Source of the DNA: Prevotellaceae bacterium | Lineage (GTDB): Bacteria > Bacteroidota > Bacteroidia > Bacteroidales > Paludibacteraceae | Assembly (NCBI GenBank): GCA_031290375.1 | Contig: JAITNR010000020.1 | Coordinates: 1-34,847 of the forward strand | DNA: 34,847 nt | Direction of reading: 5' to 3' | In this document: positions 18,905-34,847 of the stretch, in pieces | Layout: every line of letters begins with the position of its first letter | Numbering within the stretch: the stretch's first letter is position 1 | The notes under the pieces: model-generated | What the model was told of the DNA's origin: nothing | The model's input: only the letters and a program-made list of their open reading frames with translations | The model's database searches: none | Translations under genes and position numbers: made by a program

Positions 18905-19222
18905 TTACATTTCAAATGAATAGTCCATCAAGGGAGCGTGCTGTTGTGCTCCATAAACGTCTGTTTCTCCGAATGCACCCGACGGCAACGGGCGAACTAT
19001 CGTAACCTTTACCGCCTTTGCAGGCTCAAAATAGACCACTTTAATGATGTGTTCCTGTGGAATTTGATAAAGTTCGGCGAACATTTTTTCGTTAAAAACA
19101 TTGTTCTCCTTAGCTTTGTAAAACATCTCAAAATCAGTGAATATCACATCAAAAGTCAGTTCGTAAGGACCTGAATTTTTGCTTCTGATAACAGAGGCAA
19201 TATTTTTTAAATCGTATTTCAT
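18905..19222 (-). CDS. DUF4387 family protein (AtuA-associated small subunit)
   Basis: A 105-residue protein. The segments ASVIRSKNSGPYELTFDVIF, FEPAKAVKVTIVRP and the tail DVYGAQQHAPLMDY are the family signature of DUF4387. This domain normally accompanies, or is fused to, the AtuA/DUF1446 protein of acyclic-terpene and related acyl-CoA catabolism; its biochemical role is not settled. Here no AtuA gene is adjacent: ssb lies upstream behind a terminator, and the glucosaminidase gene is downstream. The protein is full length for a stand-alone DUF4387. The AtuA partner may be elsewhere in the genome, or the gene may have another role. Confidence 0.85.
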   Translation of the reverse strand: MKYDLKNIASVIRSKNSGPYELTFDVIFTDFEMFYKAKENNVFNEKMFAELYQIPQEHIIKVVYFEPAKAVKVTIVRPLPSGAFGETDVYGAQQHAPLMDYSFEM

Positions 19223-21464: not shown

Positions 21465-21512
21465 CAAATCTACGAATCATAATAATCACTAAAATCACAG
21501 TTCAGTCAATTT

Positions 21513-25079: not shown

Positions 25080-25096
25080 AAAAAGTATTATCTTTG
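25065..25096 (+). promoter_or_regulatory. Promoter of the cobalamin-riboswitch btu operon
   Basis: TTTG (25065-25068), 20 bases, TATCTTTG (25089-25096). The riboswitch begins a few bases after the expected start site. Confidence 0.75.
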
Positions 25097-25103
25097 TGCC
25101 GAC

Positions 25104-25270
25104 TTAGGTTCAAGTTGCTTTAAATGCAAAGCAATTGACTAACAGGGAATTCCGTGAAAATCGGAGACAGTCGCGCTGCTGTAAACTTCAAAAAAAAATT
25201 TTTGAACTGCAAACCACTGCTAAAAGCGGGAAGGGAACAAAAACGAAGTGAGTCAGAAGACCTGCCTGAG
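25104..25270 (+). promoter_or_regulatory. Cobalamin (B12) riboswitch
   Basis: Contains the family landmarks in order: TTAGGTTC, AACAGGGAA, CCGTGAAAATCGG, the B12 box GACAGTCGCGCTGCTGTAA, CCACTGC, GCGGGAAGG and GTCAGAAGACCTGCC. Binding of adenosylcobalamin or a related cobalamin to such RNAs shuts off expression of uptake genes. A GC-rich pair (CCC...GGG around 25291-25305) lies between the aptamer and the btuB ATG at 25316 and may form the expression platform, probably acting on translation. It controls the gene that follows. Confidence 0.95.
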
Positions 25271-25315
25271 TAATTATTAACACTTAAAAGCCCTCGCGAA
25301 AATGGGTTAAAAGGT

Positions 25316-31140: not shown

Positions 31141-31150
31141 ATTGAGAATT

Positions 31151-31199
31151 AAGGGCAAAACCCTTACAGCATTAGGGTAGGGTATGGTAGTACCCTACC
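31151..31199 (+). promoter_or_regulatory. Two RNA hairpins before the second btuB
   Basis: AAGGG-caaaa-CCCTT (31151-31165) is followed by GGTAGGGTA-tggtag-TACCCTACC (31176-31199). Neither is followed by a T tract, so they look like processing, stability or attenuation structures rather than plain terminators. Confidence 0.55.
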
Positions 31200-31229
31200 T
31201 GATAGCTGTTGGTTATTAACTGTTCTTTT

Positions 31230-33427: not shown

Positions 33428-34549
33428 ATGAAGAAATTGTATTTTTTATCAGTGATGTCAGCTGCTCTTTTGTTTGGCAGTTGTAACCCGGACAAACCTG
33501 TTATTCCCCCGGGTGGTGAACCTGTCGACAACCAAATTACAGGGTTTTACCTTTTGAATGAAGGAGCTATGGGGTCGAACAACGCAAGGCTTGATTTCTA
33601 CGATTACCAGAAGGCAGTGTTTAGCAGAAACATTTTTCCTGCGGTAAATCCCGAAGTTACAGGCGGACTTGGTGATGTAGGCAACGATTTGAAAATCTAT
33701 GGCAGTCGCCTCTATGCAGTTATCAACGCCTCAAATCTGGTTGAGGTGATGGATGCCAAAACGGCTAAGCACATCGGCGTAATTTCTGTAACAAATTGCA
33801 GAAGTATAGCGTTTGACGGAGGCAAAGCGTATGTTTCGTCCTTCGCAGGATCGGTGTACGGAGCTTCGCAAATCGGCTACGTTGCCGAAGTGGATACGGC
33901 TTCCCTACAGGTTTTACGGACTGTAAATGTTGGACACGAACCGGAAGAGATGGAGGTAATGAACGGAAAACTCTATGTGGTAAATTCGGGCGGCTACAAC
34001 CCTCCCGCTTACGACAATTCGGTTTCAGTAATTGATATTTCGTCTTTTACAGAAACAGGGAAAATTGATGTAGCAGTAAATTTGCTTAACCTTAGAAAAG
34101 ATGCTCATAACAATCTTTTTGCTTTGGGTCGTGGTGATTACAGTGCCGTTCAGCCCGATATTTACAAAATCAATACGCAAACAAATGCAGTTGAAAAAAT
34201 CAACGTTCCTTATGCTTCAAATTTCTGTGTTTCAGGTGATTCGCTGTTTATTTTGAGTAACAACACCGACTACTCAAGTGGCACAGCAGTTACTGTTGCA
34301 AAGTTTGTGATTTACAACACTCAAAGTAAGCAAGTTATGACGGAAAACTTTATTACTGACACTTCTGATGCTCAGATAAGTCTGTCATACGGAATTGCCG
34401 TTAATTCAATTACAAAGGAGATTTTCATAACCGATGTCAAAGATTATGTTTCTCCCGGAACGCTGTTCTGTTTTTCGCTGGAAGGCAGCAAAAAATGGAG
34501 CGTTATGACTGATGTTATTCCCTCAAAAATTGCTTTTTTGTGGAAATAG
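33428..34549 (+). CDS. btuG: BtuG-like B12-binding surface lipoprotein, copy 2
   Basis: A 373-residue lipoprotein with signal peptide and lipobox LFGSC (Cys at about 19) and the same YncE/DUF5074-type propeller as copy 1. Shared blocks include GFYLLNEGAMGSN, RNIFPAVNPEV, LGDVGND, LYAVINASNLVEVMD and DVKDYVSPGTLFCF. It lies 190 bases after btuB2, and the pair is a diverged duplicate of btuB1-btuG1. It probably forms a receptor complex with btuB2. Hairpins follow its stop. Confidence 0.85.
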   Translation: MKKLYFLSVMSAALLFGSCNPDKPVIPPGGEPVDNQITGFYLLNEGAMGSNNARLDFYDYQKAVFSRNIFPAVNPEVTGGLGDVGNDLKIYGSRLYAVINASNLVEVMDAKTAKHIGVISVTNCRSIAFDGGKAYVSSFAGSVYGASQIGYVAEVDTASLQVLRTVNVGHEPEEMEVMNGKLYVVNSGGYNPPAYDNSVSVIDISSFTETGKIDVAVNLLNLRKDAHNNLFALGRGDYSAVQPDIYKINTQTNAVEKINVPYASNFCVSGDSLFILSNNTDYSSGTAVTVAKFVIYNTQSKQVMTENFITDTSDAQISLSYGIAVNSITKEIFITDVKDYVSPGTLFCFSLEGSKKWSVMTDVIPSKIAFLWK

Positions 34550-34572
34550 ATTTCCAATTATTCTGGAAAATA

Positions 34573-34599
34573 TTTTGAATATCAGGATGATATTCAAAA
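34573..34599. repeat. Perfect 11-bp inverted repeat after btuG2
   Basis: TTTTGAATATC (34573-34583), loop AGGAT, GATATTCAAAA (34589-34599). It abuts the next palindrome with no gap. Confidence 0.75.
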
Positions 34600-34658
34600 G
34601 TGTTAGCCATTAAAAAAGGGTAGTACCGCAAGTACTACCCTTTTTTAATGGCTAACAC
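34600..34658. terminator. Perfect 27-bp-stem hairpin, likely bidirectional terminator
   Basis: GTGTTAGCCATTAAAAAAGG...GTAC (34600-34626), loop CGCAA, and its exact complement (34632-34658). The A6/T6 runs sit inside the stem, not after it. It ends the btu locus and stands between it and the IS1595-type gene. The length and perfection are unusual for a simple terminator and raise the option of a mobile-element end. Confidence 0.6.
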
Positions 34659-34739
34659 TGACAGGTCTTTGTCATGTTCAGTTAATTGTCTTTTATTAAT
34701 CAAATTGGTATAAGCGTTTAGGTTGCCCAAAAAAAATGC

Positions 34740-34747
34740 TACCTTTG
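34740..34747 (+). promoter_or_regulatory. -7 element before the IS1595-type transposase
   Basis: TACCTTTG only 4 bases before the GTG start, so the transcript would be nearly leaderless if GTG is the true start. The -33 half is not at normal spacing. Confidence 0.4.
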
Positions 34748-34751
34748 TAGC

Positions 34752-34847
34752 GTGAAAACAAGAGAAAAATTTACAGGAGTGAATTCAATAGAATTTTATA
34801 AACGCTTTCAAAGCGATGAGGATTGCTACAAATATATTGCCAACATA
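34752..34847 (+). CDS. IS1595-family transposase, N-terminal part (cut by window edge)
   Basis: The frame GTG AAA ACA AGA GAA encodes MKTREKFTGVNSIEFYKRFQ and SDEDCYKYIANI and runs off the window. This is the start typical of IS1595-type transposases in Bacteroidetes (FYKRFQSDEDCYKYIA, ahead of the zinc-ribbon). The catalytic DDE part is outside the window, so integrity is unknown. The left terminal repeat was not identified. Confidence 0.8.
   Translation, partial: MKTREKFTGVNSIEFYKRFQSDEDCYKYIANI

Follow-up and report, generated by a model that had tools for sequence, protein, structure and literature searches.

A long perfect hairpin behind a cobalamin-uptake cluster as the probable intrinsic terminator of its transcription unit in a Prevotellaceae genome

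The longer of two abutting perfect hairpins that follow a cobalamin-uptake cluster in the genome of a Prevotellaceae bacterium (hairpin 2) probably ends the btu/DUF5074 transcription unit as an intrinsic (Rho-independent) terminator, one built on a stem that is unusually long and perfect, and the shorter one (hairpin 1) appears to be an accessory part of the 3' untranslated region. Termination itself is what we infer from the sequence, the predicted fold, the position of the hairpin behind the stop codon, the hairpins that relatives carry at this position, and its independence from the neighbouring insertion sequence (IS). The window, that is, the whole stretch of 34,847 nucleotides that was analysed, is the entire contig C148, one of the 273 contigs that make up a draft genome of 2.19 Mb, and the coordinates of its relevant features are collected in Table 1.

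The cluster upstream of the hairpins contains a cobalamin riboswitch at positions 25089–25283, two TonB-dependent receptor genes, whose position suggests a btuB-like identity and the second of which encodes a Plug domain, and two genes of the DUF5074 type. The last of these has its closest named relative, at 56% identity, in a Paludibacter MAG, so that the organism probably belongs to Paludibacteraceae or to a nearby group of Bacteroidales. From the stop codon of this gene, which ends at position 34549, the distance is 24 bp to hairpin 1 and 50 bp to hairpin 2; both lie 3' of the DUF5074 gene that closes the cluster. Another pair of abutting hairpins, with no T-run behind it, occurs inside the cluster at about 31141–31209, between a DUF4465 gene and the second btuB-like gene; at 31150–31209 it consists of AAGGG-CAAAA-CCCTT followed by an imperfect 19-bp stem with GGGTAGGGTA/TACCCTACC, and the word GGTAGTACC is common to it and hairpin 2.

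Table 1. Positions in the window of the two hairpins, their parts and the flanking elements
Feature	Coordinates	Strand	Description and basis
DUF5074 lipoprotein-like gene, last before the hairpins	33428–34549	+	ORF; Pfam PF16819, E = 2.8e-14
Hairpin 1	34573–34599	+	AT-rich; perfect stem of 12 bp around a 3-nt loop, no T-run behind; inverted-repeat finder and fold
Hairpin 2	34599–34659	.	Perfect stem of 28 bp around a 5-nt loop; putative intrinsic terminator, proposed to act in both directions
Outer 5' arm of hairpin 2	34599–34611	.	AGTGTTAGCCATT; pairs with 34647–34659; outside the A/T tracts
Putative terminator core within hairpin 2	34612–34646	.	A6-GGGTAGTAC-CGCAA-GTACTACCC-T6; sequence and RNA fold
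Outer 3' arm of hairpin 2	34647–34659	.	AATGGCTAACACT
Left end of multicopy IS (probably IS1595 family) with transposase start (GTG at 34752)	34707–34847	+	Copy comparison; contig ends inside

The geometry of the pair is exact. The inverted-repeat finder returned arms of 100% identity for both hairpins, at 34573–34584 and 34588–34599 for hairpin 1, which can equivalently be described as an 11-bp stem with a 5-nt loop, and at 34599–34626 and 34632–34659, around the loop CGCAA, for hairpin 2. Base 34599 is common to the two full-length hairpins, and when hairpin 2 is trimmed to 27 bp (34600–34658) it abuts hairpin 1 with a gap of 0; the initial description of two flawless abutting palindromes, with stems of 11 and 27 bp, thus slightly understated full stems of 12 and 28 bp. 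The pair is not a product of chance: when the window was simulated 200 times with a first-order Markov model, the longest perfect stems were 8–14 bp, against the 28 bp observed, and the RNA folding z-score of the pair was about -12 relative to shuffles. The 3' untranslated region as a whole (34550–34659) is predicted to fold into three successive hairpins.

Several features of hairpin 2 argue for termination. It is a stable stem-loop just 3' of the transcription unit, with a predicted folding energy for the core of -19.3 kcal/mol with the A/T tracts included and of -13.2 kcal/mol for its 9-bp GC-bearing stem alone, and T6 stands directly behind that 9-bp stem, though T6 itself pairs with A6 and is followed by further pairing bases. 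RNA polymerase would transcribe A6 and the core, the core would fold, and the polymerase would pause and then release at the U6 behind it, so placed that the outer 13 bp would lie past the predicted release point and pair only in read-through RNA. In published work (PMC1852404), a bidirectional terminator is described as a hairpin that has As on one flank and the complementary Ts on the opposite one, a description that the core with its mirrored A6 and T6 fits; given this mirror symmetry of the tracts, transcription from the opposite side may stop at the same DNA, and hairpin 2 may be used in both directions. With such terminators it shares a GC-bearing stem, a short loop, mirrored tracts, and a position just past the last gene, but it differs from them in that its stem runs 13 perfect bp beyond the tracts to a total of 28 bp and that a convergent partner gene was not seen, the far side running into the IS in which the contig ends. 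In Escherichia coli, inverted repeats after stop codons (arms of at least 8 bp, spacers of at most 8 bp) are mostly parts of intrinsic terminators (PMC6060812), and hairpin 2 resembles the cruciform-forming repeats at gene ends described there in being perfect, in having a small spacer, and in lying directly 3' of a stop codon, whereas it belongs to a different phylum and has long arms. What speaks against reading it as a terminator is that the T-run comprises just six bases and is followed by 13 more complementary bases that are superfluous for termination. A stock terminator scan of the window did not list hairpin 2 among its sites, because the rule of the scan seeks Ts after a complete stem and here the Ts lie inside the stem; a terminator with its tracts hidden inside a longer palindrome can thus escape finders that make this demand. 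Our literature search on terminators of Bacteroidota found nothing specific. Among the options first offered for the palindrome, that of a terminator is well supported by the anatomy of the core, the position 3' of the last gene, and the hairpins in relatives, and the remark that it far exceeds an ordinary terminator holds as regards stem length.

The same position was compared in orthologues of the last gene and their downstream DNA from four other genomes of the genus and from Paludibacteraceae MAGs. A hairpin with a T-run lies 3' of the orthologue in three of the four congeners and in two family members, soon after the stop codon in each case, at loci L062 (-16.3), L063 (-28.3), L065 (-8.1, weak), L057, and L060; that of L063 has an 18-bp stem in which the A/T tracts are likewise part of the stem. 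No such hairpin was seen at L064, L066, and L067, where another coding sequence apparently lies close behind, and in the further relatives L042 and L043 no hairpin with a T-run follows the gene. The hairpins behind the orthologues in five relatives suggest that termination at this position is frequent in the group, and their sequences are unrelated, a lack of conservation that would be expected of terminators. At L062, in the congener G002, about 150–500 bases past the DUF5074 stop, there are also degenerate repeats of the form TTATACCCTAAAAGTTTG.

The insertion sequence beyond the hairpins is a neighbour, separate from the hairpin element. About 20 IS copies share sequence from window positions 34704–34707 onward, with the terminal inverted repeat (TIR) GGTATAAGCGTTTA, so that the IS starts 47 bp beyond hairpin 2. 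The IS1595 label given to it is plausible, resting on a zinc-ribbon match (PF12760) that falls below the Pfam cut-off and was obtained on a second, truncated copy. When the target duplication ATCAAATT was used to pair the left junction with a right-junction contig, it found no match among the assembled right ends. Within the IS, the segment 34730–34752 carries TACCTTTG just 5' of the GTG start, which resembles the -7 promoter element of Bacteroidota, TAnnTTTG. A copy of about 364 bp elsewhere in the genome (L009, G000:C101:20044-20407) has both IS ends and little interior, is apparently an internal-deletion derivative, and shows no simple target duplication in its flanking bases.

The proximity of this IS, at just 47 bp, raises the question of whether hairpin 2 is itself an IS end, a fold-back MITE, or a preferred transposition target of the IS, a reading also favoured by palindromes that may resemble paired IS ends and occur twice at locus L128 of the congener G003. 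This origin, already largely refuted, is highly improbable: with up to 3 mismatches allowed, neither hairpin arm has a second copy in the genome, the outer arm at up to 2 mismatches gave one weak match, no more than a control, and the arms are absent from the 299 other genomes of the family (300 searched, including its own) and from viral contigs. As the arms are single-copy and absent from these genomes, an IS end, a MITE, or a repeated target is not supported, and these identities were rejected. The TIR of the IS, moreover, differs from the hairpin arms and begins separately at 34707, and among 21 left and 13 right IS junctions the present one alone has a stem of at least 12 bp within 200 bp of flank. 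In the two checks proposed with the sequence-only reading, the genome-wide search gave both arms as single-copy and the survey of the 33 other IS junctions revealed no comparable palindrome; its suggestion of a transposition end or target is not supported. Nothing suggests a target preference of the IS for the palindrome, and our literature search on IS targeting found nothing specific. Hairpin 2 resembles REP-type and IS-end palindromes, examples of which occur elsewhere in this genome (TGTCTGAACTGTGATTTTAAT, CGTCATTGCGAGG), in being perfect and intergenic, but unlike them it is single-copy. For annotation, hairpin 2 would mark the end of the cobalamin-uptake unit, and a suspected mobile-element feature is removed. 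The palindromes of G003 (L128:16796-16851 and 18929-18988) are near-identical, perfect, and 26–28 bp long (TTACTGTCCGCTAAA...), and we take them to be possibly paired IS ends or MITEs.

A perfect palindrome could also have been made by a fold-back join during assembly, and hairpin 2 does lie about 190 bp from a contig end in a 273-contig draft. We consider such an artefact improbable, given that the hairpin is followed by 47 bp more DNA and then by a correctly joined IS left end common to other contigs, that its core has the anatomy of a terminator, and that similar perfect hairpins occur inside other contigs.

How unusual the hairpins are was gauged in a sample of 61 contigs, the window among them, that covers 494 kb of the genome and holds 13 perfect hairpins with stems of at least 15 bp, the longest being 35, 28, 25, 20, 19, and 19 bp, so that hairpin 2 has the second longest. 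The claim that so long a stem should be unstable in replication unless selected or recent is overstated, because long perfect stems recur in this genome. Others with the A/T-tract form follow genes at L113 and L101 (both between convergent frames), L121, and L081. Five hairpins of the sample combine mirrored A/T tracts with a GC-bearing core; of these, hairpin 2 extends 13 bp past the tracts and the others 0–2 bp, and hairpins 1 and 2 are the sample's only tandem pair of perfect stems of at least 10 bp within 30 bp, such a pair being found in none of five simulations.

Standard intrinsic termination has no use for the outer extension. One could suppose that hairpin 1 and the outer stem form with the terminator a composite, selected 3'-end module that adds RNA processing or protection to termination, the proposed functions being mRNA 3'-end protection, the cutting of read-through transcripts by RNase III, or a site in the DNA for protein binding or cruciform formation. 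The outer extension and the tandem arrangement, both unique among the hairpins of the sample, would favour such a module, as would the threefold fold of the 3' untranslated region and the folding of 31141–31209 into two abutting hairpins, but it is a single case, and the outer arms show no sequence conservation in any relative and hence no sign of selection, so we regard the module as unlikely. Nor does the element belong to an Rfam family at the gathering threshold; a known RNA family was rejected, since microRNA and small-RNA models matched only below threshold and as generic hairpins. An integron attC site, whose inverted core boxes read RYYYAAC ... GTTRRRY, was likewise rejected, the arms GTTAGCC ... 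GGCTAAC having the reversed order and not fitting the consensus. Hairpin 2 is best read as a terminator with an added outer stem, and template switching in replication, which can generate or perfect stems in one event (PMC8794818), is probably the likeliest origin of that extension, the overlong perfect stem being a tidy candidate for the growth of a terminator in this way.

Two further kinds of repeat were observed. A dispersed palindromic repeat of REP-like look, TGTCTGAACTGTGATTTTAATGTGATTA, occurs at L098:1520-1601, L114:3678-3722, L127:785-816, and window positions 21475–21505, and its set includes a 35-bp perfect hairpin that lies between convergent frames. At L088:10299-16890, many copies of ATTGACTAATCGACTA are found on both strands within a few kilobases.
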